A program made the translations under genes and the position numbers. Below are positions 2,224-28,430 of a stretch of 40,418 bases of DNA, piece after piece. The first letter of the stretch is position 1; each line of letters begins with the position of its first letter. Where the stretch lies: IMG/VR virus record IMGVR_UViG_3300028666_000059, positions 1 to 40,418 of that record. The stretch is one strand, 5' to 3'. The notes under the pieces were generated by a model, which was not told the DNA's origin, ran no database searches, and saw only the letters and a list, made by a program, of their open reading frames with translations. This DNA is from a virus.

Positions 2224-2742
2224 CTATGTTACGACTGTAAGGGTTCCTTGAGGAGGTTCACTCTGAAATGTATTGCTCCCCATATATGAAATGGTTACCT
2301 CATCTCCCGCACTATTGCTTGTTACAGTTCCAGTAGACCCTGCATGTCCCGTAACTGTACCTATTACAATACTTTGTCCACCATTAGGTATTATTTGAAA
2401 TTTACTGCTAAGACTAAATATTTTAAAGGTATCTCCAATCGTAGGGGTCAAAGGAAGAGTAAATGTGACCAAAGAGGCTCCCGAACAGATATATGCATTA
2501 TCTGCCAAGATTTGTATTGGATTTGTAGGGGAGGCACTTGTAACGACATTCCAGGTATATCCTTCTCCTGATATAGATATGGTAATCGTATCGCCAGATC
2601 CTGTAGTAGTAACTGATCCAGCACCTAATATATTAAGCGTATTTGAGGAAGGTGTTGCAGACCCAATATTGGCTACAAATAGAGTTGGGACATCAGGAGG
2701 TAGGACACCTCCACCATTTTCGAGTGCTCCTGCTTGGCTAAT
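2224..2742 (-). CDS. Tail protein with probable ATT start (172 aa)
   Basis: The frame is open from 2751 to 2224, but it contains no ATG, GTG or TTG before a TTG at 2508. The 78 codons upstream of that TTG are clearly coding: GAGSVTTTGSGDTITIS resembles the repeats of the 537-residue tail protein. An ATT at 2740-2742 lies five bases after an AGGGGG Shine-Dalgarno and would give an N-terminus (M)SQAGALENGG. A TAG lies in frame three codons further upstream. The C-terminal module (NAY, TFTLP, IGDTF, GQSIVIG) is shared with neighbouring tail genes. The start is inferred; the reading frame is not in doubt. Confidence 0.75.
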   Translation of the reverse strand: MSQAGALENGGGVLPPDVPTLFVANIGSATPSSNTLNILGAGSVTTTGSGDTITISISGEGYTWNVVTSASPTNPIQILADNAYICSGASLVTFTLPLTPTIGDTFKIFSLSSKFQIIPNGGQSIVIGTVTGHAGSTGTVTSNSAGDEVTISYMGSNTFQSEPPQGTLTVVT

Positions 2743-2757
2743 AACAACCCCCTAGAA

Positions 2758-3651
2758 CTACTTCAGTTCAAGTTTTTTTATAAGCAGCTGGGCATTCTCT
2801 AGTTGTTTCTCTAGTAGAAATACTTTCTTATCTGAATTCTGAGAACGTAAATTCGCACTACTTGCATCAAGAGCGATCGCCTCTAGTTTCTTGAGAATAT
2901 CATTCTTGAAATCAACTAGATCACTTGGCTTAGAGGTAAGTTCATTGCGAAGATCGTCGATTGCTTTTGCAATTTTGCATTCCAATTGCAAACTAACAGA
3001 AGGTAAAGCGGCTTTACTATTGGCTGAATCTGCCTTTAAAGCCGTGACTTGGGTGTTGATTAAATCAATTGATGAAATGAATGCAGCAGGAGAAATGCTG
3101 TTGTCTTTTGTGGATTTGATATCACTTTCTAGCTGTGAAACAATACCATCTACTGACTTGCGAAGATCATTGAACATCTGTGCATGTTGAGCGGCGTTCT
3201 TGTTAATTGTGACTTGTAAAGCCCCCACTTCTGCAGCGTTTGCTTTAGTTGCCAAAGCCTCGTCTTGAGTCTTCTTAAGAGTCGCCATACCACCCTTAAC
3301 ATCATCCAGCATCTTTGTAACGCTTCCTTGGATATCACTCTGCCCAGATATGATCTTTGCCGATGTTCCTGCATGCTCAATGAGATCACTCTGAAGACCA
3401 TTAACTCGTTCAACTTGGAGGTTGTGAAGTTTTGCTACGTTCTCCCCGAGACTATCAATAGCTTTTTTATAGCCATCAGTCTTCTCTTTCTCCATCTCGA
3501 TCTTAAGAACTAACGCATGCATCTCATCAAAGAGGGCGTCATAAGCAGCTATGCGATCTTGGTAAGAAGGGATCTTAGCTTCAAGTAAAGCCAGTCTTTC
3601 TTCTGGAGTCTTCTCAGTGTTATCTTGGGCAAAACTTCTAGCGTCGCTCAT
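2758..3651 (-). CDS. Coiled-coil virion-region protein (297 aa)
   Basis: This protein is highly charged and mostly helical, with long heptad-like stretches such as EERLALLEAKI near the N-terminus and LEKQLENAQLLIKKLE at the C-terminus. It contains no transmembrane segment and no recognised catalytic motif. The start is placed at ATG 3651 because a GGAAG Shine-Dalgarno lies six bases upstream and the preceding gene stops at 3653. Lying among beta-rich tail genes, it could be a trimeric stalk or fibre-assembly factor. That is inference only. Confidence 0.8.
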   Translation of the reverse strand: MSDARSFAQDNTEKTPEERLALLEAKIPSYQDRIAAYDALFDEMHALVLKIEMEKEKTDGYKKAIDSLGENVAKLHNLQVERVNGLQSDLIEHAGTSAKIISGQSDIQGSVTKMLDDVKGGMATLKKTQDEALATKANAAEVGALQVTINKNAAQHAQMFNDLRKSVDGIVSQLESDIKSTKDNSISPAAFISSIDLINTQVTALKADSANSKAALPSVSLQLECKIAKAIDDLRNELTSKPSDLVDFKNDILKKLEAIALDASSANLRSQNSDKKVFLLEKQLENAQLLIKKLELK

Positions 3652-3652
3652 G

Positions 3653-3982
3653 TTAACTTCCGTAAACGATTTCGATATAAACCGAACCACTTCCTGGCGC
3701 AGATACTTGCTTTACATAGAACTGTGTGTTGATGGGAAGCACAAATACTTGATCCACATGCGTTCTGTTAGTGCAAAGGTCAAACAATTTAAAGCTCTTG
3801 GATGGGACATAGAGCTGATTGTTAATGCCATCTACGCTAAAGAACATGTCTGTATCACAGGTATTCGTTATACATACTAAGCGAGATGCTTGTGTAGTTG
3901 GGGTTCCTACAGCAACAAATGACCCAGTTATGCTTCCAAATGCTAAGGATCTGAGAGTATCAAACCTTACGTTCTGTGCCAT
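3653..3982 (-). CDS. Small tail-region structural protein (109 aa)
   Basis: A compact beta-rich protein (segments such as FFSVDGINNQLYVPS and FVLPINTQFYVKQ) between a large repeat-rich tail protein and the coiled-coil protein. It looks like a single-domain collar or tail accessory protein. The ATG at 3982 is nine bases after the upstream stop, in an operon-like arrangement. I do not recognise a specific family. Confidence 0.8.
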   Translation of the reverse strand: MAQNVRFDTLRSLAFGSITGSFVAVGTPTTQASRLVCITNTCDTDMFFSVDGINNQLYVPSKSFKLFDLCTNRTHVDQVFVLPINTQFYVKQVSAPGSGSVYIEIVYGS

Positions 3983-3990
3983 ATTTTACC

Positions 3991-5397
3991 TTAGTTTATG
4001 ATCCACCAGTTGATGTGCACGTCGCCGTTAAGTGCAGCCGCACCGTTGTTTTTAAGAGTTACGGTCAGAGTACTAGCAGCTTGCACTACACGTGTAATCG
4101 TCATCTGAGCATCGTTTGTGCCAAGGTTATCTGCGCTTACAAAGATTGCCTGGGCAGTCCCTGATACTGATGAGTTAGTGATTGCAAAGGCTTGAGAGCT
4201 TCCTGATGCAGTTGTTACGCCTGTGAAGGTGGCATGTCCCACTCTTCCGTTCACTGTGATAGATGTAGCAGCAACACTTCCTGTAATAGGAGTTACTAGA
4301 ACGTTACCTGCTGTTGCTCCAGAAGCAATTGTAACTCCACCAGAACCTGATTGTAGAGTTGTCGCACTTGTTGTATTTGTTGATCCGACTGTCAGAGCTT
4401 TTGCGCCTGCGCCGGTTGCTATGGATACTGTAGTTGCTGTTGCGTCGGTTGATACACCGAGAGCGCCTGTTCCAGAGTTGGCTGTGAGCGTGCCGTTAGT
4501 AGCCGTAATTGCAAGAGCGCCTGATCCCGACTGAACTGTGGTTGCTGCTGTGGTATTAGTTGACCCGACTGTCACCGTGTTTGCTGCGGCATCACTACCA
4601 ATTGCTACAGTATTACCACCGCCATTCACTGCGATGTTTCCTGTTCCACATTGTACCGTTACTGCGCTAGCACCATTGGTTGAGCCAAGGGTTACTAGTT
4701 TAGCTCCAGCACCTGTTGCTAGAGATACGGTCGTAGCCGCCGCATCAGTTGAGAGTCCTAATGCTCCAGTACCTGAGTTTGCTGTGAGTGTGCCGTTAGT
4801 TGCTGTTATTGCCAATGCCCCGCTACCAGACTGTACAGTCGTTGCTGAAGTTGTGTTTGTTGAGCCAAGAACTGTAGTCTTTACAGCTGCACCAGTACCA
4901 ACGTGAACTGTTGTTGCGCTTGCGTCAGTTGAGATGTTCGTTGCGTTAGTGCCAGATTGGATGTTTGTTGCACCACCTAGTGTTGTGATACCAGCATCGC
5001 CTGTAAGTAGCCCTGTAGAAGTAAATGCGCCAGGTGATGTTGCTGGGTTAGCGATACCGATAGATGCTGTAGATCCTGAGCCACTCGTTACAAGCTGTCC
5101 AGATACACCAGCGAGGTTGATATTACCTGCTGTTGGTACTACTACAGTACTGTCATCAGTTGTTAGAGAGTTAACATCTCCAGAAGCCGCTGAAACAATG
5201 GTCCATGTCGCTTGCACTACGCCTTGAACAGTGCTTTTGTTGGTTAGCGTGTAGAGAGTTCCTGTTGTGGAATCCCACCATTGCTGTCCAATAGGGTAGT
5301 TGATATTCGTAAGTCCTGGCGCTACTGGTGATTTAACAAGACCTGGGACAGATGACGTCCCGACTGCTACTGCATAAACGTTGGTTGGCGTGCTCAT
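3991..5397 (-). CDS. Repeat-rich tail fibre-like protein (468 aa)
   Basis: After a leading segment (residues 1-75) that resembles the start of the 537-residue tail protein (PIGQQWWDSTTGTLYTLTN versus PIQKQWINTTSQKFWVLS), the protein becomes a long series of short beta repeats. Units such as TTVQSGSGALAITATNGTL and TLGSTN(T/G)(T/A)SA recur several times. A C-terminal globular domain follows. This is typical of fibres built as beta-helices or beta-prisms. The first gene of the tail-fibre array, it has a good GGAGG Shine-Dalgarno (AGGAGGCTCCATG). Confidence 0.86.
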   Translation of the reverse strand: MSTPTNVYAVAVGTSSVPGLVKSPVAPGLTNINYPIGQQWWDSTTGTLYTLTNKSTVQGVVQATWTIVSAASGDVNSLTTDDSTVVVPTAGNINLAGVSGQLVTSGSGSTASIGIANPATSPGAFTSTGLLTGDAGITTLGGATNIQSGTNATNISTDASATTVHVGTGAAVKTTVLGSTNTTSATTVQSGSGALAITATNGTLTANSGTGALGLSTDAAATTVSLATGAGAKLVTLGSTNGASAVTVQCGTGNIAVNGGGNTVAIGSDAAANTVTVGSTNTTAATTVQSGSGALAITATNGTLTANSGTGALGVSTDATATTVSIATGAGAKALTVGSTNTTSATTLQSGSGGVTIASGATAGNVLVTPITGSVAATSITVNGRVGHATFTGVTTASGSSQAFAITNSSVSGTAQAIFVSADNLGTNDAQMTITRVVQAASTLTVTLKNNGAAALNGDVHINWWIIN

Positions 5398-5538
5398 GGA
5401 GCCTCCTGGCTTTATATATAATAAAAACTTTAGTACTAGCAGCTTTTTTGAGCTATGAATATATAGCGAACTAAAGAAATGATTAGGACTTATGTGAATG
5501 CTCTCGAAATGGTAGAATTAGGGGAAATGAGAGGGAAT

Positions 5539-5703
5539 ATGGACAATGCGCAAATGCTAATTATCATAGGGAGCATTTTAATTCCCCTTTTTACCGGATT
5601 CGGCTATGTGATAAAACGCTTATCCTCTATTGAAACCAAACTCTCTAAACTTGAGGGAGCTTTTGAAGAACGTGGGCGATGGGAAAGCAGGATGGTGAAA
5701 TGA
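5539..5703 (+). CDS. Small single-pass membrane protein, lysis-cassette candidate (54 aa)
   Basis: First gene of a five-to-six-gene plus-strand island inside minus-strand virion genes. A hydrophobic segment (MLIIIGSILIPLFTGFGYVI) is followed by a short coiled coil (LSSIETKLSKLEGAF) and a charged tail. This layout resembles XhlA-like or spanin-like lysis proteins. The ATG at 5539 has a GAGAGGG Shine-Dalgarno; in-frame starts at 5527, 5509 and 5479 are also possible. The stop overlaps the next start (ATGA). Lysis function is inferred from topology and company only. Confidence 0.62.
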   Translation: MDNAQMLIIIGSILIPLFTGFGYVIKRLSSIETKLSKLEGAFEERGRWESRMVK

Positions 5704-5984
5704 GCTGGATAAAAGAAAATTCTCTACCTCTCTGCGCTATTATTCCTTTAGGAATCTCCTTTTTGATCTTGCTTGTCTGCTCTTTTTTTGTGTTTATTTT
5801 AAAGTCAGACATCATCGCCAAGGTAGTGTTGTTGCAGGGATTTCTTTTTTTTGCCGCATGCCTCTCAATGATAACGTGGGATCATTATGACTCTAAAAAG
5901 TTCCATGCAAAACTAAAAATGGATAACGAAGAGTTTATGAGAATCATGGAAGAAATACGTTCACATAGAGGAGAGAAGAAATGA
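5700..5984 (+). CDS. Two-pass membrane protein, holin candidate (94 aa)
   Basis: It starts at the ATG of an ATGA overlap with the preceding gene. There are two hydrophobic segments, about residues 10-34 and 40-61, and a charged helical C-terminus rich in Lys and Glu. The size and topology suit a small holin, but no family signature is seen. The stop again forms an ATGA overlap with the next gene. Confidence 0.65.
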   Translation: MSWIKENSLPLCAIIPLGISFLILLVCSFFVFILKSDIIAKVVLLQGFLFFAACLSMITWDHYDSKKFHAKLKMDNEEFMRIMEEIRSHRGEKK

Positions 5985-6124
5985 ACGGAGATACCATGTT
6001 TATTTTAGCAGCAATTTTCTTTTCGACACTTTGGCTGAATGATAAATTCAATGAAATCGAAGAACGACTTGATAAAATAGAAACCGCATTGAGTGGTATA
6101 GAACACTCACTTATGAGGATATGA
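5981..6124 (+). CDS. Tiny membrane protein with coiled-coil tail (47 aa)
   Basis: Starts at ATG 5981 overlapping the previous stop, with an AGGAGAG Shine-Dalgarno six bases upstream. A hydrophobic stretch (MFILAAIFFSTLWL) precedes an amphipathic charged helix (FNEIEERLDKIETALSGIE). Its design repeats that of the first gene in this island, which suggests ancient duplication or parallel spanin or antiholin roles. Confidence 0.55.
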   Translation: MNGDTMFILAAIFFSTLWLNDKFNEIEERLDKIETALSGIEHSLMRI

Positions 6125-15363: not shown

Positions 15364-16512
15364 TTAATTTCCACCACCTGAAAAATTATTAGATGGAGAC
15401 TGAGAAGAAAAGTCACTGAAGATCGTAGGTGTACGTGTTGCTGTGAATTGGCGTTGCGATCTTTTCCACACCAAATTCTCCTGCTCGCGGAACAGTGGCT
15501 CATAAAATTGAAACTGCTCTATGTCGCCAGTATCAGACAGTATCTTCCTAGCAGCGCCACGAGCTATATATTCAGCCATGTATGCAAATGGAACAGATTG
15601 ACTGGTAGATAGAAAGGCAGCTGGGGTCAGATAAGTTTCTAATTCAACCAAATAGCTTACATCTGGAGGTGGGCGAAGGGTGATTGTGTTGTTATAGAAC
15701 AAAATCGCTCTTGGTATGCCTTGTTGAATATAATAGCTCTGGATATTGATCGGCGTGCCCGTAGGAATATTTTCATTAAACGTTACGTTGATCTGGCCAG
15801 TTGTATAGTTGATCGTATTCACCGTAGCACTATAACCACCTGCAACAGCTCCAGTTAACATCCCTAACTGCATATTGCCGGTAACGCCTGTAGTAGATAA
15901 AAACTGTCCTGAATCAGACACCACGACTGTATTGTTGTTGGCATCTTGCGTAGTTATGAAAACAGCAGGATATGTGCTGGTTTTCGGTACACTTGTATTT
16001 AGGGTGGTTGCGACTATTGGGTCTATAGATGAATTGGCTGCTATGATACCTGTTATGTCCACATGTCCTGCTAGCGCTGGGAAGAATGGAGTTGTCAGTG
16101 TATAAGTAGCCCCACCATTGCCTTGGAAGGAATTGTTAAGTGCTTGGATATAATTGGGCCATATATTGAAAAACCCACCTTGCTCAGTATAAAAAGGCAC
16201 TTGGATGCCATTTACAAATGCAGGACCGAGGAAGCCTTGATATACGGGATAGTAGGATATTAGCTGACCACCTGGTTCTATTTGAACCGGATATCCATTC
16301 GTGTTGTATAGCGGCATATTGTACTGATCTATTCCAGGGGAAGTCTGAAATCTATAAGTCGTCTTAAAATCAAATAGCTGCATCCTGGCATCAACATCTA
16401 TCAACCAAAAGCGGTTCACATAATCGATCAAGAGATTGTCCGTTACCGAAGTATTGGATGTGGGCTTGATGAGTCTTCGGATGTAAATTAAAATGTCACT
16501 TAGAAGATTGAT
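15364..16512 (-). CDS. Head-tail adaptor-like protein with probable ATC start (382 aa)
   Basis: The frame is open from 16515 to 15364. Its first usual start codon is a TTG at 16431, but the codons upstream are clearly coding (SDILIYIRRLIKPTSN then VTDNLLIDYVNRFWLID). An ATC at 16510-16512 lies three bases after AGGTGA and would give (M)NLLSDILIYIRR. The protein holds a DYVNRF...DVDAR...FDFKT segment at 32-55 and is otherwise beta-rich. Gene order (capsid, small proteins, this gene, hub) suggests a head-tail adaptor or connector. The HNH gene directly upstream is in the same frame and ends at the TGA just before this start. Confidence 0.75.
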   Translation of the reverse strand: MNLLSDILIYIRRLIKPTSNTSVTDNLLIDYVNRFWLIDVDARMQLFDFKTTYRFQTSPGIDQYNMPLYNTNGYPVQIEPGGQLISYYPVYQGFLGPAFVNGIQVPFYTEQGGFFNIWPNYIQALNNSFQGNGGATYTLTTPFFPALAGHVDITGIIAANSSIDPIVATTLNTSVPKTSTYPAVFITTQDANNNTVVVSDSGQFLSTTGVTGNMQLGMLTGAVAGGYSATVNTINYTTGQINVTFNENIPTGTPINIQSYYIQQGIPRAILFYNNTITLRPPPDVSYLVELETYLTPAAFLSTSQSVPFAYMAEYIARGAARKILSDTGDIEQFQFYEPLFREQENLVWKRSQRQFTATRTPTIFSDFSSQSPSNNFSGGGN

Positions 16513-16515: not shown

Positions 16516-17118
16516 TCACCTATAAATTCTGTGTTTCTTTGAGTGACAGTCTTTACAGACCCAAATCACATCCATTGGCTTCATGTAATCCTCGTGGTGT
16601 CCTTGTGTTTTGCATTTTATACCACATTCCTCACACACATCAGACCTTTTTAATATCCCTGTTTTAGTAGCCCAACAAACCAAAGCATGAGCGGCGGATT
16701 TCTGAGGGTTTTTCTTTTTCCATTCTGAAGTAACTCGGCCTGCTTTTGTTACATTTTCCCTTTGCCATTCTCTCTGCCTATTGCGGTTTTTTTCTCGAGC
16801 TTCCTTGGTGCGCCTTTTTTCAGCGCGTCTTTTAGCTATTTCTTCTTTATGTTTTTCGTAGCTTTTTTTGCTTTGCTCTCTTCGTTTCTCATAATTGAGA
16901 TAATATTCTATCTTCGCTTTTTCCCTTAAGAGTTCTGCATTCTTCCTTCGATATTCAAGAAAATATTTCGAGTATACCGATTGATTTTCTAGTCTCTGTT
17001 TTTTGCTCCTTTTCCTTATGCAAGGTTTGCAATATACATTGAACCCATCGCAAGAATACCTATCTTTCCCAAACTCTGTTTCTGCCTTTTCCTCTAAACA
17101 CTTTGGGCATTTTTTCAT
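16516..17118 (-). CDS. HNH endonuclease inserted at the adaptor start (200 aa)
   Basis: The N-terminal zinc finger begins KKCPKCLEEK and ends with YCKPCIRKR. A very basic helical linker (about 50-135) follows, then a C-terminal HNH core with CEECG, GHHEDYMKPMDVIWVCKDCH and a final KKH. It belongs to the common phage family with a GHHEDY..P signature. The ATG at 17118 follows AGGGG; its AT lies in the stem of a possible hairpin (17117-17122 with 17138-17143). It is a selfish homing-type gene lying between a degenerate and a functional copy of the adaptor gene start. Confidence 0.85.
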   Translation of the reverse strand: MKKCPKCLEEKAETEFGKDRYSCDGFNVYCKPCIRKRSKKQRLENQSVYSKYFLEYRRKNAELLREKAKIEYYLNYEKRREQSKKSYEKHKEEIAKRRAEKRRTKEAREKNRNRQREWQRENVTKAGRVTSEWKKKNPQKSAAHALVCWATKTGILKRSDVCEECGIKCKTQGHHEDYMKPMDVIWVCKDCHSKKHRIYR

Positions 17119-17147: not shown

Positions 17148-17180
17148 TTACCAAGAACTGGTGTCATCAAGGAGATTCAT
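17148..17180 (-). other. Vestigial adaptor gene start (10 codons) left of the 186-residue gene
   Basis: Behind TATAGGTAGAGC an ATG opens MNLLDDTSSW and then stops. The first codons match the start of the adaptor on the far side of the HNH gene (NLLSD after the ATC), and both are preceded by TATAGGT. It appears to be the original 5' end of the adaptor gene, cut off by the HNH insertion, or a duplicate made by it. Confidence 0.55.
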
Positions 17181-18458: not shown

Positions 18459-19574
18459 CTACATATCAGAATAAATAGCTTCCCAATAAACCACATCGCT
18501 GGTTGTTCCTGAAAGGTGTGAGCTAGCGTCAGTTACTGCGCTACCTGCACCTATCACGAATCCTTGGCGAGTATTGTTTACAAAAGCCCCTCTAATAGCA
18601 GGACCATTTATGGTCGATACGCCACCAGAAGATGTTGGGAAAGAAGGAGAAGGATACAGAGCGCCTCCGGTATAGAGATCGCCACCTGTATTCACATCAC
18701 CTACTGCAACTACTTGTGGGAATGATAGACCAGGGACACTTGCAACTGTTGGGTTGTTTGTGTATGCGCTATATCCCGTAGAGTTGATCGAGCACACAAA
18801 TACTGTATTGCTTGTTACCGAAGTTACATAACCATAGATCGGAGATCCAGGGATTGTGCTATTCGGAAGAGAGTTGAGTTGAGTTGTTCCCCATGATGTA
18901 GGAATTCTAAAAGCAATCTCTTGGCCTGTACGGTAATTGTGGCTTGTTGTTGTTGTAATTGTTGTGGTAGTACCAGTCGTAATAGCACTGATAAAATTCA
19001 CACCTGGCAAATACAAGTCGGGATAAAGAATCTTCTTCACATACGCGCCTGCAGGAGAACCTGAAAGTGCTGTGTAGTTAGATTGGTTACCGTTCCAAAC
19101 GATTGTGAAGTGGTCTGCATCGCCTACTGCACTAATTTGGAATGGCATACCTGAAATCTGAGGCATACCAGTCGTTGCGGACTGATAAAGACCCTCAAAA
19201 GTCACCCAATCACCAACTGAATAACCATGCGCTGTTACGTTAAAGACAATAGGACTTGCCTTTGTTGCGCCAATGATTTGTTTCTGCGCTCCATACTGAA
19301 GCATTAGACCAGCACCAAAAGTGCTGATACCATTGCTTGTTACAACGTCAGTAATCAATGTTGGTGTCGCGCCAGAGTTTAACAACACTGAAGCAAAACC
19401 TTGTCCCATAGACACGTCCCAATAAGCTTGGGGAATACCGTGTTGGGCAAATGCTGCCGATGCAGTGTAGTTAGTGATCTTCACGAGGTTTGGCTGGAAA
19501 GGCAAGTATACATACTGCGCCGATCCAGTTGTTGCTGTGTAAGAACCACGAGCAATTCTATTATATTCTGTCAT
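18459..19574 (-). CDS. Capsid-associated, decoration-like protein (371 aa)
   Basis: Immediately downstream of the major capsid gene (one base between stop and ATG) and followed by a terminator, so it is co-expressed with it at high level. It is a beta-rich protein. Residues 105-160 hold an FCCH-like module (GYSVGDWVTFEGL). The C-terminal half holds the ITTGTTTTITTTTSHNY segment that is duplicated as a separate gene at 17824-18255. A decoration or head-fibre role is inferred from position and composition. Confidence 0.82.
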   Translation of the reverse strand: MTEYNRIARGSYTATTGSAQYVYLPFQPNLVKITNYTASAAFAQHGIPQAYWDVSMGQGFASVLLNSGATPTLITDVVTSNGISTFGAGLMLQYGAQKQIIGATKASPIVFNVTAHGYSVGDWVTFEGLYQSATTGMPQISGMPFQISAVGDADHFTIVWNGNQSNYTALSGSPAGAYVKKILYPDLYLPGVNFISAITTGTTTTITTTTSHNYRTGQEIAFRIPTSWGTTQLNSLPNSTIPGSPIYGYVTSVTSNTVFVCSINSTGYSAYTNNPTVASVPGLSFPQVVAVGDVNTGGDLYTGGALYPSPSFPTSSGGVSTINGPAIRGAFVNNTRQGFVIGAGSAVTDASSHLSGTTSDVVYWEAIYSDM

Positions 19575-19575: not shown

Positions 19576-20544
19576 TTACACCCCCAAAGAAGTCATGCGC
19601 GTGCATGCTAAGTTACGGATTGCCGTATCTTGCGTGAGCGCCTGAGCTTGAGCGAATTTAACCGCTAAGGTTGCGTTCTGAGCTAGCATACCAGAGTAGT
19701 AAGGATCTCTATAAATCAAGTTCATAGAATATCCGTCCTGTTGGATATGCGTCACAGCTTGCTTGCCTACAACATAGTTATAGTAAACATCGGCGCCACT
19801 TGCAGAAAACGCTCTCGCTACTGGTGCTTCAGAGCTTGTAAGAATACGGATGTTATAAACACTACCGTACTCAGATGGAAGCGCTGATGCATTTGTAGGA
19901 TAGTTCCACTGGGAGAGGAATCCACTACCAGTTAAGCTATCAAAATCACTTTGTAGCTCTGTAGAAGAAAGCATAAAATATGCACTTCTTACAGGGCCTG
20001 TACCAAAATGATCCATACCTTCAATACCAGACATAAATTTGTAGGCATTGTTAGTATCCAAAGTAGTTGCAACAAGACTAAAGTCTGATGCTCCTAAGTT
20101 GGTTGGGTTGTCTCCATTCGTTCCACCGCCAGCATTAATTTGGCTAGCTGCAGAAAGGATGTAGTCACGAAGGATCAAGTCTTCGGCTTGACGCATAGCG
20201 GTGGCTAGACGCTCAGAAACCCAAGCGAGAACTCCCTCTTGGTCTTGCAAAATAACTTGCTCGTTCAAAATACAGCCAGTACCAAAAAACGCCATTTGCG
20301 CGTCTATGATATCTCTTTGTGGCACTTGAGCTGGAGGATCAATACCTGTGTTCCCCAATTGAATTGTAGGAGGAACAAGGGCTCTTGGTCTCATAAAGCG
20401 CATAGTTGTTCCACCATTAGGTGGCATGCTCACTTTATCACAGATCAAGATGTTGTTCATTGTAGGAGTAGGTACATATAACATCGCCGGAGCTAAGCTC
20501 TGGAGAATCATAGGACCTAGATTCCCTGTAGTAGTAATAGACAT
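19576..20544 (-). CDS. Major capsid protein, N4-gp56-like (322 aa)
   Basis: Length, position after the scaffold gene, and sequence layout fit the HK97-fold N4-gp56 group. There is an N-terminal arm (residues 1-30), a basic MRFMRPRAL segment, a long helix (WVSERLATAMRQAEDLILRD, about 109-128), and a C-terminal domain with DPYYSGMLAQNATLAVKFAQ. The ATG at 20544 follows GAGAG. A long structured leader lies upstream and a terminator follows the next gene, so capsid and decoration proteins form their own expression unit. The family call is from memory of such proteins, not a search. Confidence 0.82.
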   Translation of the reverse strand: MSITTTGNLGPMILQSLAPAMLYVPTPTMNNILICDKVSMPPNGGTTMRFMRPRALVPPTIQLGNTGIDPPAQVPQRDIIDAQMAFFGTGCILNEQVILQDQEGVLAWVSERLATAMRQAEDLILRDYILSAASQINAGGGTNGDNPTNLGASDFSLVATTLDTNNAYKFMSGIEGMDHFGTGPVRSAYFMLSSTELQSDFDSLTGSGFLSQWNYPTNASALPSEYGSVYNIRILTSSEAPVARAFSASGADVYYNYVVGKQAVTHIQQDGYSMNLIYRDPYYSGMLAQNATLAVKFAQAQALTQDTAIRNLACTRMTSLGV

Positions 20545-21393: not shown

Positions 21394-22095
21394 TTAGCCT
21401 CGTCTATTTCTGATCAATTCTTTCATTTTGGCATAAGCATTCTCTTGGCCTTTTGAGCTGAAATCCCCTTGCATTGCATAGGGAGGAGTCGCGCCTGCAC
21501 TTGATGGTTGGTAGTATGGGTTTCTTTGGTTTTTGTTTACTGTGTCTTGGATCGATGTCTTAGGTTCGTCCTTCTTGTGGATTCCCAGTGCTTTGATGTT
21601 CTGATAAAGAAGCTTCTTGCGGGCAAAGTTGTCTGGCATTTCTACCATTTGCTCGGCTATTTCTGGATGACGCTCAGCAAACTTCTGAATATTTTCTTCG
21701 TTTAGGATCTGATTGAAGTCGGCGTTTTGTCTCAGGAAGGAAACTTGTCTTTCCTGTTCGATCATGGCCGCGGCTTTTTCTGTCGCTCGTCTATCAATAT
21801 CTTGTCCCATATCCTGCGCAAAACGGGATAATTGCTTTTTGAGCGTTCTTTTATCGACATAAGGCTCGCTATCATCATCGTCATCAGCATCTTCATCCCT
21901 ACCTTTGTGAGGACGTTTAGAAGCTTCGTATTCTTGAAGTTTTTTCTCTAGTTCTTGCTTCGATCTGCGCTCTTCTTCTAGTTGGCGCTCATACATTTTT
22001 CTCTGTAAGGCGAAGTTCTTTTCCTTTTCTACTTGAACCGCTTCTGATTGTACTTGTGTGTTTGTAGTATTGATACTTTCATTTGGTGTGGACAT
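21394..22095 (-). CDS. Scaffolding protein candidate (233 aa)
   Basis: A highly charged, mostly helical protein directly upstream of the capsid region, the usual place of a scaffold. It has a coiled coil (about residues 25-60, QRKMYERQLEEERRSKQELE), an acidic patch (DEDADDDDDSE), a second helical region, and a basic C-terminus (KMKELIRNRRG) of the kind that docks onto capsid protein. ATG 22095 is preferred over 22161 and 22107 because GAAGG lies five bases upstream. No protease gene is seen, so the scaffold is probably recycled or expelled. Confidence 0.75.
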   Translation of the reverse strand: MSTPNESINTTNTQVQSEAVQVEKEKNFALQRKMYERQLEEERRSKQELEKKLQEYEASKRPHKGRDEDADDDDDSEPYVDKRTLKKQLSRFAQDMGQDIDRRATEKAAAMIEQERQVSFLRQNADFNQILNEENIQKFAERHPEIAEQMVEMPDNFARKKLLYQNIKALGIHKKDEPKTSIQDTVNKNQRNPYYQPSSAGATPPYAMQGDFSSKGQENAYAKMKELIRNRRG

Positions 22096-22119
22096 AATAA
22101 CCTTCATCTTAACGCCGAA

Positions 22120-22140
22120 TAGCGATAAATGGTTTATACT
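22120..22140 (+). promoter_or_regulatory. Candidate promoter for the 22-24 kb plus operon
   Basis: A TATACT (22135-22140) lies 25 bases before the first plus-strand ATG, the same -10-like hexamer as at the Cro operon. No good -35 is visible at the right distance; instead TAGCGATAA (22120-22128) lies just upstream. The region is divergent, since the scaffold gene starts at 22095 on the other strand. Weakly supported. Confidence 0.35.
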
Positions 22141-22165
22141 AAAATATTTATTTGAAGGCAACGCT

Positions 22166-22711
22166 ATGAAACTAAATAAAACCGATGTCTATGACAGATT
22201 CACTCATTTCACTAAGCAAGAATTCGATATTGGCGAATGTTGCCAAGACCTAATCAATCAAAGACCTTTTGGAGACCATCCGTTCTACATATTCGCTCAT
22301 CCTAGGACCAAAGAAGATGGCGTTACTAAAGTTATGATATGGCAGCCAAGACTAACTAAACCACGCGCAGAGCCCAACTCTATGCTATTTAAGGCCTATC
22401 CAGGGACAGATGTGATTAAGGTTCTTTGGATGATTCCATCTAGAGAATTGTGGAGTCAATTCCAGAAGGGCATGATTACTCAAAATAAGACTGTAATTGA
22501 GAGTATTGATAATTTTAGACATCGTAGGAGTCAATTAGAGGCTCCAGAAGATGATGACCTATCTGATGAGGCTATAAGCGCTATTTACAGCGAGATAAGC
22601 CATGCTGCCAATAAGAAGCAGACGACTGATGCAAAGATGCAAGACTTACAGAAACATATGGCTGTGATGCCAAGAGGACTTAAAAATGAAACACACCGAA
22701 CTGAAAACTGA
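22166..22711 (+). CDS. Phage protein of unknown function, first gene of plus operon (181 aa)
   Basis: Starts at ATG 22166 with GAAGG eight bases upstream. A compact N-terminal domain holds DIGECCQDLINQRPFGDHPFYIFAH, KVMIWQPRLTKP and NSMLFKAYPGTDVIKVLWMIP. A helical acidic C-terminus follows (APEDDDLSDEAISAIYSEI). It looks like a conserved phage protein found near capsid genes, but I cannot assign a function. It overlaps the next gene by 26 bases. Confidence 0.78.
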   Translation: MKLNKTDVYDRFTHFTKQEFDIGECCQDLINQRPFGDHPFYIFAHPRTKEDGVTKVMIWQPRLTKPRAEPNSMLFKAYPGTDVIKVLWMIPSRELWSQFQKGMITQNKTVIESIDNFRHRRSQLEAPEDDDLSDEAISAIYSEISHAANKKQTTDAKMQDLQKHMAVMPRGLKNETHRTEN

Positions 22712-22886
22712 ATACGCCACTGCAGATCTAGACAGAATCACATTTGAAGTACGCGGCTTATTCCAGGACACCATCGAGGCTTATGAAAAACGCGGATTTA
22801 CTGGGATAGATCTTCTTAAGATGTCCTATGGGCATATAAAACATGAGATTAATGCATTAGTTAGGGCGTATTTGGGGGATGAATGA
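22686..22886 (+). CDS. Small helical protein (66 aa)
   Basis: Begins inside the end of the preceding gene and overlaps the following one by four bases. It is a charged helical protein (DRITFEVRGLFQDTIEAYEKRGF then HIKHEINALVRAYL) with no membrane segment. No family is recognised. Tight overlap implies translational coupling. Confidence 0.6.
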   Translation: MKHTELKTEYATADLDRITFEVRGLFQDTIEAYEKRGFTGIDLLKMSYGHIKHEINALVRAYLGDE

Positions 22887-23116
22887 CAATTAGACAAGGT
22901 TTTTTATTCTTATTCTTAGCAATCACTGGGTGGATATCACTTTGCTATATAACCGATAAGGCATTCCCTAAAGAACCAACAGTCTATATGAGCTATTGGT
23001 GTGGAGAGATACATTTTGGGCCACCTGAATATGACTGGCCAGGGCCGAATGACATTATTCCCGACTCTATTCCAGATAGGCCAAGAGATGAACCCGAAGA
23101 GAAGGGCGCGGAATGA
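22883..23116 (+). CDS. Small membrane-anchored acidic protein (77 aa)
   Basis: An N-terminal hydrophobic segment (GFLFLFLAITGWISLCYI, about residues 6-23) acts as a signal anchor. The rest is short, Pro- and acid-rich (EYDWPGPNDIIPDSIPDRP). ATGA overlaps are present at both ends. It might be an outer-facing or periplasmic accessory protein, but function is unknown. Confidence 0.6.
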   Translation: MTIRQGFLFLFLAITGWISLCYITDKAFPKEPTVYMSYWCGEIHFGPPEYDWPGPNDIIPDSIPDRPRDEPEEKGAE

Positions 23117-23268
23117 TCAAGAAAAGAAAAAAGGCAAAAACCCGCTTTGTAATTTGCATGCCTATTGGAGAAATAGGACAGATTCTAAGTAATGTTGATG
23201 GCATTCCTAAATTTATCGATCCAGTTGGGAAGAACTACGAGGACATTAGGAATTATGGATTTAGCTAA
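23113..23268 (+). CDS. Small basic protein ending in the YGF junction motif (51 aa)
   Basis: ATG 23113 overlaps the previous stop (ATGA). The N-terminus is very basic (MIKKRKKAKTRF). The C-terminus KNYEDIRNYGFS matches the end of the protein at 29944-30135 (KNMEDVRDYGFR). The last 14 bases contain the start of the next gene, exactly as in two other places in the genome. Confidence 0.6.
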   Translation: MIKKRKKAKTRFVICMPIGEIGQILSNVDGIPKFIDPVGKNYEDIRNYGFS

Positions 23269-23488
23269 TGGATGGATTAATGCTTATGAAGCAACCGAAG
23301 AAGACTACAAACGACTTAGAGAATATACCGGCCATGCTTTGGTTTATGAAAAGAGTGACAATCGGGAAATAGGCGCTCATTACCTTGTGGCTCAACTTAC
23401 GCAAATCGGATGGCTAATAAGAGGCGGAGAAGAAATAGATGTATCTCATTGGATGCCATTACCCGAATCACCTAAGGAGAAAGAATGA
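23255..23488 (+). CDS. DUF551-like protein (77 aa)
   Basis: The start at 23255 is chosen because it lies in a TATGGATTTAG junction used three times in this genome and gives MDLANGWINAYEATEED. The C-terminus has the hallmark DVSHWMPLPESP seen in DUF551 proteins. The role is unknown. DUF551 genes are common small passenger genes in phages. Confidence 0.65.
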   Translation: MDLANGWINAYEATEEDYKRLREYTGHALVYEKSDNREIGAHYLVAQLTQIGWLIRGGEEIDVSHWMPLPESPKEKE

Positions 23489-23691
23489 TGTATTCGATTG
23501 AAGACCTAGCAAAAACATTCAAGCTTCATCACGTGAGATCAGAGAAGCTTAATAAGAAGCTCATAAAAGAATTCAAAGAGAAGAATCCTGGAGAACCTAT
23601 TCCCGATCCTTTCAATGACGACTTTAGTCTTCCTCTAGCCCTTGAGTCTATATGTCATGCACTATTGGAACTTAGAAAGGCCAAAGAATGA
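23485..23691 (+). CDS. Small charged protein (68 aa)
   Basis: Two adjacent ATGs (23485, 23488) follow AAGGAGAAAG. The protein is charged, with helical ends (SIEDLAKTFKLHHVRSEKLN and LPLALESICHALLELRKAKE) around a proline-rich centre. It overlaps its neighbours by four bases at both ends. No family is recognised. Confidence 0.6.
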   Translation: MMYSIEDLAKTFKLHHVRSEKLNKKLIKEFKEKNPGEPIPDPFNDDFSLPLALESICHALLELRKAKE

Positions 23692-24005
23692 ATGAGTGGA
23701 TCAGTGTGAAGGATAGTCTGCCGGAAATGGAGCAAGTAGTCCTTGGATGCGATCAGTTTGGTGAAATGCAGGTTTGTAGAAGAGAACAACCTTGGGAAGA
23801 TGAACCCGCGCTTTGGTACTTCGGTCATATTTCTATATTTTTCCCTAAGCACTGGATGCTGTTACCTGAACCTCCCAATCAAAACTTCCATTCAGAAGAG
23901 ATTTTACATATGAAATGTCATAGCTGTAACGAAATTGATCTTGTTTTTCAATCAAAAGCTAAAGAATGGTCCTGTCTTGGATGTTCATTGAAGGAGGAAG
24001 AATGA
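23688..24005 (+). CDS. DUF551 protein with C-terminal zinc ribbon (105 aa)
   Basis: A classic DUF551 layout: MNEWISVKDSLPEMEQVVL at the N-terminus and HWMLLPEPPNQ at about 60-70. A zinc ribbon is fused behind it (CHSCNEIDLVFQ ... CLGC). The fusion suggests the DUF551 domain is attached to a nucleic-acid or protein-binding finger here. It is translationally coupled to its neighbours by overlapping stops and starts. Confidence 0.72.
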   Translation: MNEWISVKDSLPEMEQVVLGCDQFGEMQVCRREQPWEDEPALWYFGHISIFFPKHWMLLPEPPNQNFHSEEILHMKCHSCNEIDLVFQSKAKEWSCLGCSLKEEE

Positions 24006-24274
24006 CTGACTGGATTAATGTAAATACCAAGAAGCCATCAATTGCCCAATACTGTTTAGTCAGAAAAGCAGGACATTATGCTTTTGCTATATGGAACCCT
24101 GGATTTTGTTATGTAATTAATTCGCTTGAAGAAGCCGAAGAATGGACGCCTGCATTGCTCTCAGGGCCTTTTTATCAATGGAGGAACGATGGTTCCTTAG
24201 ATGTGCAGCCAAACGCAATAATAGATGAGAATGGAGAAGACATAATGCATTTGTTGGGAAAGGAGAAAGAATGA
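24002..24274 (+). CDS. DUF551-like protein (90 aa)
   Basis: Start at ATG 24002 in an ATGA overlap, behind GGAGGAAG. It begins MTDWINVNTKKPSIAQYCLV, matching the start of the neighbouring DUF551 genes, but the usual HWMPLP end is replaced by EEWTPALLSGPFYQW. It appears to be a diverged copy. Function unknown. Confidence 0.6.
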   Translation: MTDWINVNTKKPSIAQYCLVRKAGHYAFAIWNPGFCYVINSLEEAEEWTPALLSGPFYQWRNDGSLDVQPNAIIDENGEDIMHLLGKEKE

Positions 24275-24486
24275 AACTCAAGGCAAAGATAAAGAGCAAA
24301 CTCATACCTGCCCAGCTTAAGTTCCTGTACGAAAACTATGAAATCGTAGCTAATGCTGTGTTAGACCTTCCTTCCAATAAGCAAGAACTGCAGGATATCA
24401 TCTTACAAGTAGAGCAGGGGTATTACGCTCAAGGGGAGTTTTTGGGCGCTTTGAAGAAGAAATTAGAAAACATGAATGCTCCCTGA
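24271..24486 (+). CDS. Small helical protein overlapping the tRNA (71 aa)
   Basis: ATG 24271 follows AAAGGAG. The protein is basic at its start (MKLKAKIKSKLIPAQLKFL) and helical throughout. Its last ten bases, including the stop, are shared with the 3' end of the antisense tRNA-Thr. It is the last gene of the plus operon. No family is recognised. Confidence 0.6.
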   Translation: MKLKAKIKSKLIPAQLKFLYENYEIVANAVLDLPSNKQELQDIILQVEQGYYAQGEFLGALKKKLENMNAP

Positions 24487-24549
24487 AGGATTCGAACTTT
24501 CGACATCTTGATTACAAGTCAAGTGCTCTACCAACTGAGCTAAAGGAGC
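24477..24549 (-). tRNA. tRNA-Thr (anticodon UGU)
   Basis: A complete cloverleaf reads on the minus strand: acceptor GCTCCTT/AGGGAGC with discriminator A, D-arm GCTC/GAGC, anticodon arm CTTGA/TCAAG with loop CTTGTAA (anticodon TGT), a five-base variable loop, and T-arm GAAAG/CCTTC around TTCGAAT with one A-C mismatch. CCA is not encoded. UGU reads ACA and other ACN threonine codons. The late genes are very threonine-rich, so the tRNA may help their translation. Confidence 0.92.
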
Positions 24550-24736: not shown

Positions 24737-24984
24737 TATTCTACCTCTATGCGAGCCTCATCTGGATCTATTGACATTGTCTTTACTCTACCTTTAGGCA
24801 GGGTAGCAGCTTCTGCTTTAGCATTGCCCAAGTGACCAACGGGAGTGCGATGACCAACGCCGTAGTCAGTACCAGCACAAATGCGATTGCGATCGTCGTA
24901 TGATGGAGCTTCAAAGTTCCAAGGAGTCTTTTTAGAACTTGCCTTGGGTTTAGCTTGTATTGGATCATGAAAACCACTCTTCAT
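24736..24984 (-). CDS. Small polar protein (82 aa)
   Basis: A Lys/Pro-rich N-terminus (IQAKPKASSKKTPWNF) is followed by a Gly/His-rich middle (GTDYGVGHRTPVGHLGNA) and an acidic end. It starts at ATG 24984 with GGAG ten bases upstream. No family is recognised, but the tandem arrangement with two other small polar genes suggests minor head components. Confidence 0.58.
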   Translation of the reverse strand: MKSGFHDPIQAKPKASSKKTPWNFEAPSYDDRNRICAGTDYGVGHRTPVGHLGNAKAEAATLPKGRVKTMSIDPDEARIEVE

Positions 24985-25017
24985 AACTGCTCCATATAGA
25001 GGTAGGAGAGCTTAAAC

Positions 25018-25041
25018 TAGCGAAAATACTCGTAATCGCTA
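25018..25041. promoter_or_regulatory. Inverted repeat TAGCGA ... TCGCTA upstream of a small-gene cluster
   Basis: TAGCGA (25018-25023) and TCGCTA (25036-25041) flank a 12-base spacer in the gap before the 82-residue gene. The 9-mer TAATCGCTA at 25033 recurs at 17777, also upstream of a minus-strand gene. It could be an operator or promoter element. Evidence is weak. Confidence 0.3.
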
Positions 25042-25061
25042 ACCTAAACTCTCCCGATAAT

Positions 25062-25274
25062 TTAGTATCTGTTACCAGGCTTCATTGGCTTAGAAGCAAT
25101 CTTGCTCTTAGAGCGCTCTTGGTCTCTGTGGATATCTTCAGAAGTGTCTGGATAGTCTGCAAGATGACCTGATCCTTCTGCACTAGTGTAATGCTTAACC
25201 TTGTTGCTAGACTTCATCAGTGCATCTGAAGAAGCTGGGTAGCCACCGTGGTCTGTAATTTTACGTCCTGACAT
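25062..25274 (-). CDS. Small polar protein (70 aa)
   Basis: A Ser/Lys-rich, probably disordered protein beginning MSGRKITDHGGYPASSDAL and ending SKPMKPGNRY. GAGAGGG lies seven bases before the ATG. It is similar in character to the two genes downstream. No recognised domain. Confidence 0.6.
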   Translation of the reverse strand: MSGRKITDHGGYPASSDALMKSSNKVKHYTSAEGSGHLADYPDTSEDIHRDQERSKSKIASKPMKPGNRY

Positions 25275-25353
25275 AATTCCCTCTCGGTTGAATTATTTGT
25301 GTTCTTTCCATAATTGTAATCCGATAGAGGTATTGTTCAAGAAATATCTTTCA

Positions 25354-25746
25354 TCACTTTGTAGCCTTGATTTCTGCGCTGGTTTCACCGCTGCTAATTG
25401 TCAGACGATTCATAGCATTTCTAAAGAGTGCACTAATACTTAAAGATGACCCAACTTGACCCGGAGCAAGGGGATTGGCGGCGGGATAGTAGACCAATGT
25501 AGGAGCATATTCAGGGTGTTGTATGGAATAGAAGCTAGATGCTCCTAGAGACCTTCTTAAGTCTTCTGCCCATGCCGTGAGCTGGTCTTTGGCTTCTTTT
25601 ACAGCGGCGTGGTCTTCTGGAAGGTTTTCTCTGAAAACACAGGTCTTTCCGGAGATAACGCTAATGGTTACGTCATCATCGTTTTCAATAATGACGATAT
25701 TGTTCTTAGGAGTTGTCCATGTGAGGACGTAGGGAGATATATTCAT
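25354..25746 (-). CDS. Unknown virion-region protein (130 aa)
   Basis: An alpha/beta protein starting at an ATGA overlap with the gene upstream. The N-terminal half looks beta-rich (NNIVIIENDDDVTISVISGK). A helix with DQLTAWAEDLRRSLGAS precedes a proline-rich end. It lies between portal and scaffold, where head-assembly factors are found, but I do not recognise it. Confidence 0.68.
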   Translation of the reverse strand: MNISPYVLTWTTPKNNIVIIENDDDVTISVISGKTCVFRENLPEDHAAVKEAKDQLTAWAEDLRRSLGASSFYSIQHPEYAPTLVYYPAANPLAPGQVGSSLSISALFRNAMNRLTISSGETSAEIKATK

Positions 25747-26132
25747 GCATCCGAGCTGGTAAAATTGTCCCCTAAATCATCCAGATTGGTGATTATCTCG
25801 CCAATAAGATGTTTCATGAGTTTCTCTTCTTTTGCTGAAGTGTGAATTATCTTTAGGTTGCCTAGATCTTGGATGGTCCATACATCATTAAACGATGAAA
25901 CCCTTGGGCAGAAGTCTTTGATTTTAGAAAAATCGTCTTGAAACTTATCAAAGAACAGCCAGTCTCGAACCATTATTCTAAGGGGCCCTACATGAATTCC
26001 GGTGGTGGCGTTATATTTAAGCCAGTCATGGAGCAGGTCGCCTACATCTGAGCTTGGGGTATATATACAATCAAAGATCACATCGCGCTTATTTATGTTC
26101 TTTTTAAGCGTTATGAGCAGTAATCGTGACAT
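25743..26132 (-). CDS. Unknown virion-region protein (129 aa)
   Basis: A mixed alpha/beta protein with a strong GGGGGG-containing Shine-Dalgarno. The segments MSRLLLITLKKNINKRDVIF and VRDWLFFDKFQDDF stand out, but no motif is diagnostic. It is translationally coupled to the 130-residue gene. Its place right after the portal gene may imply a portal- or scaffold-linked role. Confidence 0.68.
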   Translation of the reverse strand: MSRLLLITLKKNINKRDVIFDCIYTPSSDVGDLLHDWLKYNATTGIHVGPLRIMVRDWLFFDKFQDDFSKIKDFCPRVSSFNDVWTIQDLGNLKIIHTSAKEEKLMKHLIGEIITNLDDLGDNFTSSDA

Positions 26133-26198
26133 GAACCCCCCTTTTCAGAGACTAGGTCAACCAAACAACCCCCCTGTTTTATACAGAAGATGTTTAAT

Positions 26199-28352
26199 TT
26201 ACCCCCCAATTCCAGACATCTCTGGCTGGTTTTGGTTTATATTTTGAGCATTTGCTCCATGCGTACCCATTCCTTCCATGCTAGCCATAAGTTTTGAAGC
26301 AAACTCATTGGCATTAGCGTCGTGGCGTCCTTGAGACTTTTCCTGATCTTCCATTAGTTTATCGCGATACTCAAAAGAATCAATCTGATTCATCTTAAGC
26401 ATGGTCTCGATCTCACCGTATCTTTGGATTACATCAATCATCTTCTCTAGAGCTTCCATTTTAGCTTTTGTAGAAAGCGCTCTATTCTTAGAAATCTCAG
26501 ATACTCGTTCTTCAAGAAGACCAACGTTTGACTCAAATCTTCCATAACGCTCTTTAGCAGATGCAATATTGAGGCTTGCTTTGGACATGAGTTCTTGGAG
26601 TTTGGCATGCTCGAATGCATGTTGAACGCTTTGCGTTTCTTGAGCCATGGCGGCTTGTTGTTGCTCTTGCTTCTGTAAGAACTCCATAGCTTCTGCGCGC
26701 CCTGAGAGGTTCATGTCTTTGATGATCATGCTTGGAGGGAACACTTCCCGCCCGAACATCTGGTTGATCTCTAAAAGCTGTCTTGCCTGCATGTTCTTCT
26801 GCGTCGGAGTATTAGCTCCCTCTTCAACGATCGTTTGATACTTAGCAAAGATCTTAGAATAGAAATGAGGAGACGGCTCTTCACCAAGGATTAGTCCAAC
26901 CTTCTCTGCATTCCAGTTGTTTAATGTCACTTGCAATAGAAGTCCGCCGAGAGTCTTTAATGCATAATCCCATTGATCGAAGTACTTCTGGAGAACGGTT
27001 AAGTTGGCCGCTTGCTTAAGCATTACTGTAAGAGATGAGGCTTGAGAGTCTTCTTGCGCTGACCAGTTCTCTAAATTTACCCCGGAGATTTGGAATATCA
27101 TGTTGATAAGGTCGTTGGCTAGTTGCATATCAGACGGAGGAACAGCATTCGGAACAATCTTTTCGACGTCCCCCATCTCATAACCTTCGTTGATGATGAT
27201 GTCGTAGCCTTGGCCTGACTTCTTGAGGTTATCTTCATTACCAACAGCTCCAATCTTTCTCTTCCAGCCGGAGTTTATAGAGCTCTCAGATATATCATGG
27301 TTGAGGATGATCCTTCTGTTAAGAAGGAAGTTTGTGTCTCTTAGTGTGCGGACCAATCCTCTAGATCTCAGATCGTAATAGTTAAGATGGGGTTCGTAGT
27401 TCCAGAATACAGGAACAAAGGGGAACTGCTCAAAACCAAGCGGGTTTTCTCCCTGGAACATCAGCTGATCGTTAAGAACAACCGCAAGTTTCCATGTAGG
27501 TACTTCCACTTCCACCGCTTCTAAGTCCGGGATGTTGTAGAGAATCTGCTCTAGCTGGCCGTTTTCTCCTGCAAAGTCAAAGAACTGCTTACGCGACGCT
27601 GAATAGAGCTTTTTCTTCTTTTTCTTCCACTTATACCACACATACGAGAGGACCATAAGATCATTTCTAGCCATGTTATAGTTCTCAGGGAGAAAGTAGA
27701 ATGATCCATATCGTTGAGGAGTTCCTGCCATTGGAGCTATGTTAGCTATCTTATCAGGGAACCTAGCCTCGGCTTCTTTCTTTGAGATGTACTCCTGGCA
27801 CCAAACAAACTGAGCATCAGAGAAATCGGGCTCTCTTGCGTACGGATCCACTAGAAAGCTATTGTATTCCCACACCTTTACCTTCAAATCCCCTTGGGCT
27901 GGATCGGAAGTATAATCGAGATATGGTTGCAAAAGGCATAAACCCGCTACACAAGAGAGCTCGCAAGCCTTAGAGAACTGCTCACTTATAGCACTCGTGT
28001 TAACGCAATGATCTATAATGCGCGTATACTGGTCGGTTGTATTTGGGTCAGCACCCTCAGATGGGATGTAGATTATGTTCTTCCTATGCTGCCTTTGATA
28101 TCCCGTGATCATGTTTATAGGCTGCTGCAGGAAGTTAAAGTAGAAGTTTTGGTAAGATGTGCCAGGACTGAAATTAAAATACCGGTTTATGAACGTCTGT
28201 GATCCGGCATAAAAAAGTGAGTCAATGTTAGCTTGGTTCCATCGCGATTGTTCGATTGGCTGAAACTTGCCATAGAGATTATCCAACCACTGTCGGACAT
28301 TCCCTTGGTTTGGTTCTAGGGCATTCTCCCAGGGGGCGAAATAAAATGAGAT
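26199..28352 (-). CDS. P22-type portal protein with probable ATC start (717 aa)
   Basis: The protein matches P22-like portals: N-terminal RWNQANIDSLFYAG, then PINMITGYQRQHRKNIIYIP, DYTSDP/VKVWEYNSFLVDPYAREPDFSDA, a central NFLLNRRIILNHDISESSINS, and a long helical C-terminus (barrel-like) rich in Gln and Glu. It forms the dodecameric ring through which DNA is packaged. The first usual start is TTG 28286, but in-frame coding extends upstream (SFYFAPWENALEPNQGNVRQ) to an ATC at 28350-28352, four bases after a perfect GGAGGT. A TAA closes the frame six codons further up without any ATG, GTG or TTG. Confidence 0.87.
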   Translation of the reverse strand: MSFYFAPWENALEPNQGNVRQWLDNLYGKFQPIEQSRWNQANIDSLFYAGSQTFINRYFNFSPGTSYQNFYFNFLQQPINMITGYQRQHRKNIIYIPSEGADPNTTDQYTRIIDHCVNTSAISEQFSKACELSCVAGLCLLQPYLDYTSDPAQGDLKVKVWEYNSFLVDPYAREPDFSDAQFVWCQEYISKKEAEARFPDKIANIAPMAGTPQRYGSFYFLPENYNMARNDLMVLSYVWYKWKKKKKKLYSASRKQFFDFAGENGQLEQILYNIPDLEAVEVEVPTWKLAVVLNDQLMFQGENPLGFEQFPFVPVFWNYEPHLNYYDLRSRGLVRTLRDTNFLLNRRIILNHDISESSINSGWKRKIGAVGNEDNLKKSGQGYDIIINEGYEMGDVEKIVPNAVPPSDMQLANDLINMIFQISGVNLENWSAQEDSQASSLTVMLKQAANLTVLQKYFDQWDYALKTLGGLLLQVTLNNWNAEKVGLILGEEPSPHFYSKIFAKYQTIVEEGANTPTQKNMQARQLLEINQMFGREVFPPSMIIKDMNLSGRAEAMEFLQKQEQQQAAMAQETQSVQHAFEHAKLQELMSKASLNIASAKERYGRFESNVGLLEERVSEISKNRALSTKAKMEALEKMIDVIQRYGEIETMLKMNQIDSFEYRDKLMEDQEKSQGRHDANANEFASKLMASMEGMGTHGANAQNINQNQPEMSGIGG

Positions 28353-28430
28353 AAGTACCTCCGCATGCCTAGGGCATTAGACTTTTTACTTACACCATAA
28401 CAACTTAAGTATTTTCAAGAATAGATTTGG

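Follow-up and report, generated by a model that had tools for sequence, protein, structure and literature searches.

The portal gene of the phage analyzed here starts at an ATC codon placed 4 nt behind a strong Shine–Dalgarno (SD) sequence, and most of its relatives, which form a large group of uncultured phages, also start the portal at a codon other than ATG. The comparisons described below make it probable that initiation of portal translation is restrained by selection, and that of the head-to-tail adaptor to a lesser degree. It is a long-standing question of virus assembly how a phage comes to make about 12 copies of its portal subunit when capsid subunits number in the hundreds. The initial annotation had proposed that start codons such as AUC and AUU control the output of low-copy virion parts. 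This proposal is supported for the portal, in which the trait is gene-specific, clade-wide, repeatedly re-evolved, and tied to the strength of the SD, and more weakly for the adaptor.

Non-AUG starts in the phage genome

The window, that is, the whole virus record of 40,418 bases that was analyzed, carries the terminase, portal, scaffold-like, capsid, second virion protein, adaptor, and tail genes on its minus strand. The features concerned are as follows:

30122–31399, minus strand, large terminase gene, control family (phrog_2, E = 2.8e-48; probable GTG start in this phage)
28357–28362, minus strand, portal SD GGAGGT, 4 nt 5′ of the ATC, with U at −1, an arrangement shared with relatives
26199–28352, minus strand, portal gene, 717 aa, start ATC at 28352–28350 (Pfam P22_portal, E = 4.7e-59; phrog_156 portal, E = 5e-50)
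21394–22107, minus strand, scaffold-like gene, ATG, control (139 of 143 ATG in the family; function inferred from its place before the capsid gene)
19576–20544, minus strand, major capsid gene, ATG, control (phrog_1357 major head protein, E = 2.4e-17)
18459–19574, minus strand, second virion protein gene, ATG with a strong SD, control (119 of 120 relatives ATG; mean SD −10.3 kcal)
17148–17180, minus strand, orphan adaptor 5′ fragment ATGAATCTCCTTGATGAC... (MNLLDDTSSW*), 5′ of the HNH gene, resembling the adaptor consensus MNLLSDI
16516–17118, minus strand, HNH/endonuclease VII-like endonuclease gene (phrog_2340 endonuclease, E = 9.5e-28)
16516–16521, minus strand, adaptor SD AGGTGA, sharing bases with the HNH stop codon
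15364–16512, minus strand, probable head-to-tail adaptor gene, 382 aa, start ATC at 16512–16510, with U at −1
2748–2753, minus strand, SD-like AGGGGG of the small tail-fibre-like gene, read from the sequence
2224–2742, minus strand, small tail-fibre-like gene, start ATT at 2742–2740, with U at −1

The starts read GGAGGT-actt-ATC at 28352 (portal), AGGTGA-tat-ATC at 16512 (adaptor), and AGGGGG-ttgtt-ATT at 2742 (the small tail-fibre-like gene, hereafter the third gene), all on the minus strand, so that the three starts without AUG described in the initial annotation are all present. Between the in-frame upstream stop and the start codon, none of the three genes has an ATG, GTG, or TTG. The three start positions are fixed because the residues conserved in relatives begin at codon 2 (SFYYPPW in the portal, NLLSDI in the adaptor, and SQAG in the third gene). 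Downstream of the portal ATC, an in-frame ATG is reached only 80 codons into the gene; another ATG is located 14 nt 5′ of the start, but in a different frame. The portal protein scored 200.9 bits against PF16510, for which the curated cut-off is 26.1, and thus belongs to the P22-like portals. Its start lies outside AUG, GUG, and UUG, is fixed by conservation, and has a strong, well-spaced SD, so that translation from it may be attenuated. The capsid gene uses ATG, as had been noted initially, and its family comprises 123 ATG and 3 TTG starts.

A tRNA-Thr (TGT) gene is located at 24477–24549 among the structural genes; the single tRNAs of relatives vary (Asn, Gly, Met, Thr), and one relative carries five. 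An Rfam search of the whole 40,418-nt window gave no match except one tRNA. Between the portal and scaffold genes, a block of small plus-strand genes (22058–24486) runs against the structural gene direction, and one gene of this block (family 3) has about 150 relatives.

Start codon of the portal in relatives

Relatives were collected by scanning IMG/VR with three portal queries, the adaptor, and the capsid protein, which yielded several hundred loci, and seven further loci were taken from genome contigs. The portal start was pinned in relatives by the conserved N-terminus S-F-Y-Y-P-P-W. The start tallies count distinct sequences rather than independent lineages, save in the named tree-based tests. 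Among 165 distinct portal 5′ ends, 161 carry one of seven codons at the anchored position (TTG 42, ATT 38, ATG 27, ATC 24, ACG 19, GTG 9, and CTG 2), and in the remaining 4 a plausible start lies only a few codons away (ATG in two of them, TTG or ATC in the others). The survey of start contexts in related phages that the initial annotation had suggested thus gave 134 non-ATG starts at the same anchored position and 17% ATG; 83 of the 161 portals start outside ATG, GTG, and TTG altogether. Sequence error as the source of the non-AUG portal start is ruled out by these approximately 160 distinct sequences from many contigs. ATA, AAG, AGG, and non-cognate codons occupy the anchored portal start in 0 of 161 cases. 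The absence of ATA stands beside 62 ATT and ATC starts in AT-rich genomes, and the adaptor has ATA twice.

Pairwise substitutions between relatives were constrained at the first and second codon positions and free at the third from codon 3 of the portal on, and no coding-type constraint was found 5′ of the start, the SD excepted. Of the 80 portals with an A-first near-cognate start (ATT, ATC, or ACG), 64 lack any ATG, GTG, or TTG in the interval from the upstream stop to that codon.

On a FastTree tree of portals with 145 tips, the portal start underwent at least 75 codon changes and at least 44 changes of codon class, and it differed in 36 of 55 sister pairs. UUG and GUG, together the start codons of one third of the portals, swap with AUU and ACG on the tree. 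The portal codon is labile yet confined to AUG and its one-base neighbours, which argues that it is under selection and has not decayed. Such lability within the set of AUG neighbours is the pattern of stabilising selection on strength, and not that of selection on identity or of decay. No correlation between portal and adaptor codon choice within a genome was evident by eye at 55 shared loci.

A TGTAAA-N5-TTTACA palindrome of intergenic appearance was observed in 80 of 346 loci (for example, L052:9456-9472 and L029:1749-1765), sometimes just 5′ of the portal or adaptor SD; it may be an operator or a terminator. A search for cultured relatives among 50,697 phage records gave one weak portal match and no capsid match. 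Contigs of the clade that are phage-sized or short (L213–L219) occur in MAGs of Simkania, Patescibacteria, Bacteroidetes, and Nitrospiraceae, and their binning looks unreliable. As these MAGs belong to unrelated phyla, the genome-contig matches point to no particular host.

Control genes on the same contigs

With alignment-anchored starts, the major capsid and second virion protein genes of the same contigs start with ATG in 211 of 216 cases. Non-ATG starts were found in 134 of 161 portals versus 5 of 216 controls (Fisher p = 5e-67, counting distinct sequences and not independent lineages). ORF families built from all loci gave the same picture: hardly any start other than ATG occurs in the capsid, second virion protein, scaffold, terminase, and tail families (terminase, 75 ATG and 4 GTG/TTG). 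Among starts with an SD of −8 kcal or lower, ATG was used in 2 of 78 portals versus 103 of 104 controls. Host start selection therefore does not explain the portal codons, nor does a strong SD by itself, because controls on the same contigs, those with a strong SD included, keep ATG. The capsid gene itself has a weak SD (−3.4 to −5.2 kcal), and the terminase and several tail genes, whose output is presumably low, combine ATG with almost no SD.

The capsid gene is in 2 to 5 pieces in 11 loci (L102, L116, L203, L206, L200, L204, L125, L201, L054, L043, and L091). The inserts range from about 160 to more than 1000 nt, recur at sites near codons 15, 21, 29, 100, 145, and 181, and resemble small group I introns; no Rfam family scored above threshold.

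Coupling of start codon, SD, and the −1 base

The mean SD pairing energy of the portals was −5.5 kcal for ATG, −6.9 kcal for TTG/GTG, and −8.9 kcal for near-cognate starts (p = 3e-8), on the assumption of a common anti-SD, CACCUCCUUU, which may not be that of the host, and with spacing ignored. This covariation of SD and codon persisted in 91 thinned lineages (p = 2e-6) and in tree-independent pairs (11.3 for, 0.8 against). The SD core is present in all 82 near-cognate portals, with a spacing of 4–5 nt in 78 of them. Even in the ATG portals, SD pairing is at least as strong as in the capsid gene. The SD–codon trend recurs in the adaptor (p = 0.002).

The base at −1 is coupled to the codon as well. 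U at −1 occurs in 67 of the 80 A-first near-cognate portals, including 19 of 19 with ACG, versus 21 of 53 with TTG, GTG, or CTG (p = 2e-7) and 11 of 26 with ATG; independent pairs supported its association with A-first near-cognates by 13.5 to 1.2. The adaptor ATC starts have it in 11 of 11 cases. A contiguous helix of U(−1)A(1) with A37 and U36 of the initiator tRNA would be expected to produce such a pattern. The association of U at −1 with A-first near-cognates argues that a normal initiator tRNA reads these codons. We found no strong conserved RNA fold 5′ of the portal (upstream folding z of about −0.4), and SD accessibility was alike in every portal codon class.

Adaptor and third gene

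The AlphaFold model of the adaptor (pLDDT 77) best matched 8zkk_B of phage VP1 in the PDB (E = 7e-4, probability 1.00, TMt 0.54), with weaker matches to SU10, GP4, and Pa223; “head to tail adaptor” models were also matched. The model carries an extra inserted domain. A podoviral head-to-tail adaptor (T7 gp11-like) is the putative identity, which the place of the gene downstream of the capsid gene fits. Among 107 adaptor starts in relatives, 64 are ATG and 43 (about 40%) are non-AUG (TTG 22, ATC 10–11, ATT 5, GTG 3, and ATA 2). The start control proposed for the adaptor in the initial annotation thus receives weaker support than that of the portal, the relatives being intermediate.

The HNH gene adjoins the adaptor 5′ end, and the adaptor now starts ATC AAT CTT CTA AGT GAC. 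The ATGAATCTCCTTGATGAC fragment upstream of the HNH gene is probably a former adaptor start; insertion of the HNH gene seems to have cut the adaptor off from its ATG, leaving MNLLDDTSSW*. By the pattern used, this fragment was found only in this phage. Two relatives (L086 and L089) have closely similar sequence directly 5′ of their ATC start. A group I intron in the adaptor of this phage was considered and rejected, as no Rfam match was obtained and the adaptor N-terminus is encoded 3′ of the HNH gene.

Only four loci match the third gene. Relatives have ATG at the aligned position (MSQAG... in L119, L120, and L092) or directly beside it, and the third gene is judged to be outside the pattern. 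Its ATT is, from the sequence, a real start, yet one without a demonstrable pattern, and it is probably unrelated to the portal and adaptor trait. Accordingly, the initial view of this gene as a structural gene starting with ATT holds for the start codon, but the gene is tail-fibre-like and does not code for part of a ring, and the start in its relatives is ATG.

Proposed restraint of initiation and competing explanations

Three linked regularities, namely the covariation of SD and codon, the U at −1, and the 4–5-nt spacing, point to selection on initiation strength. The device would consist of an AUU, AUC, ACG, or UUG/GUG start behind a strong, close SD, with a weaker SD where the portal retains AUG. 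The ordinary initiator fMet-tRNA would read the near-cognates, the U at −1 pairing with A37 for A-first codons. The probable head-to-tail adaptor, as the next ring, would rely on this device in about 40% of genomes. The net effect would be low portal synthesis. Its benefit may be that a virion needs no more than about a dozen portal subunits and that these would misassemble if made ahead of scaffold and capsid. Portal proteins expressed alone form differing oligomers and require co-assembly with scaffold and capsid (PMC3185693). In Staphylococcus aureus, AUU and AUA starts with an extended SD yield approximately 10% of the AUG reporter (PMC13009471), which makes restrained portal synthesis the natural reading.

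Several observations fit this reading poorly. ATG is used by 17% of the portals, with an SD at least as strong as that of the capsid gene. The capsid SD is weak, so that initiation signals alone do not give the capsid-to-portal ratio, and the ATG with little SD of the terminase and several tail genes indicates that low output is possible without a poor codon. Stoichiometry alone does not explain the combination of a strong SD with a weak codon at the portal, and a simple “any weak codon” model does not predict the absence of ATA from portals.

The strongest competitor, which we nevertheless consider unlikely, is conditional control, in which the near-cognate start senses the IF3 level or growth state and thereby gates portal synthesis in time or by host physiology instead of only holding it down. 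A weak codon is likewise combined with a strong SD in infC and S. aureus ccpN, and gating would explain why the clade avoids the AUG with weak SD seen in the terminase. However, a third of the portals have UUG or GUG, which are better tolerated by IF3, and these interchange with AUU and ACG; neither a conserved leader structure nor an operator was found (z of about −0.4, with SD accessibility alike). In IF3 feedback of the infC type the gene itself encodes IF3, and the gene here encodes the portal.

Neutral tolerance, in which a strong SD renders the start codon unimportant and lets it drift, is disfavoured and improbable. The SD core in 82 of 82 near-cognates and the frequent codon changes would suit it, but equally strong SDs leave ATG in place in 103 of 104 controls, drift would be expected to produce ATA, AAG, AGG, and non-cognate codons too, none of which occurs in portals, and the U at −1 is enriched only at A-first near-cognates. 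Still less probable is a misread start, with the portal beginning upstream through a frameshift, downstream, or on a spliced transcript. The out-of-frame ATG 14 nt 5′ of the portal and the orphan ATG fragment before the HNH gene could be taken as signs of it; against them stand the 64 of 80 A-first near-cognates without an alternative start, the constraint that begins after the codon, and the SD 4–5 nt before it, and in the adaptor the NLLSD residues follow the ATC itself, so that splicing out the HNH region is unneeded. Relaxed start selection in host or phage, the former of which the initial annotation had offered as its alternative, or an altered initiator tRNA is hardly credible and contradicted by the control genes: several near-cognates function, and a tRNA with anticodon CAU occurs in L023, L047, and L102, but the trait is found only in portal and adaptor, nearly every capsid, scaffold, terminase, second virion protein, and tail gene on the same contigs starts with ATG, and most scanned loci lack a tRNA-Met, which also eliminates a phage-encoded initiator tRNA as a rule of the clade.

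We therefore retain restrained initiation of the portal as the preferred reading. More tentatively, near-cognate initiation of portal and adaptor may act as a clade-wide, gene-specific assembly valve, in which SD strength, codon, and −1 base coevolve as a set-point that IF3 or host growth state may read, for making rings at the right time and in the right number.

Comparison with known systems

The orthologous portal starts, which vary in codon, SD, and −1 base, form a natural series and a ready experiment on start selection and stoichiometry. Gene callers restricted to ATG, GTG, and TTG will misplace or truncate portal N-termini in this group. ACG starts have, to our knowledge, rarely been documented in bacteria, and a literature search of partial coverage returned no earlier report of near-cognate portal starts in phages.

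In Escherichia coli, the AUU start limits the output of infC, which is autoregulated by IF3, and of pcnB (the work on pcnB being cited in PMC13009471). The portal shares AUU with these genes but is a structural virion gene with many codons and with no IF3 gene or feedback known here. The ccpN gene of S. aureus and Bacillus subtilis, S. aureus cvfC1, and infC resemble the portal in having a near-cognate start, a strong start-proximal SD, and conservation across species; their non-AUG starts lower initiation in reporters (PMC13009471), as those of the phage portal may do. Relative to AUG, the output from the AUA start of S. aureus ccpN reaches at most 30% in rich medium, versus 10% in poor medium (PMC13009471). 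These genes are cellular regulators, and ccpN keeps its non-canonical codon, whereas the portal flips among seven codons, including ACG and UUG, and its codon covaries with SD strength.

A role of U at −1 has been described for chloroplast initiation (Esposito et al. 2001, 2003, as cited in PMC4587860 and PMC9841429), in which it is favoured and thought to extend anticodon pairing, as proposed here for the portal. In the phages, by contrast, the U at −1 is an evolutionary covariation seen only at A-first near-cognate starts. With P22-type portal operons (PF16510), the clade shares the portal family and the terminase–portal–scaffold–capsid order; the portals of P22 and Paracoccus phage KLEP18-1, unlike most of those of this clade, start with ATG.
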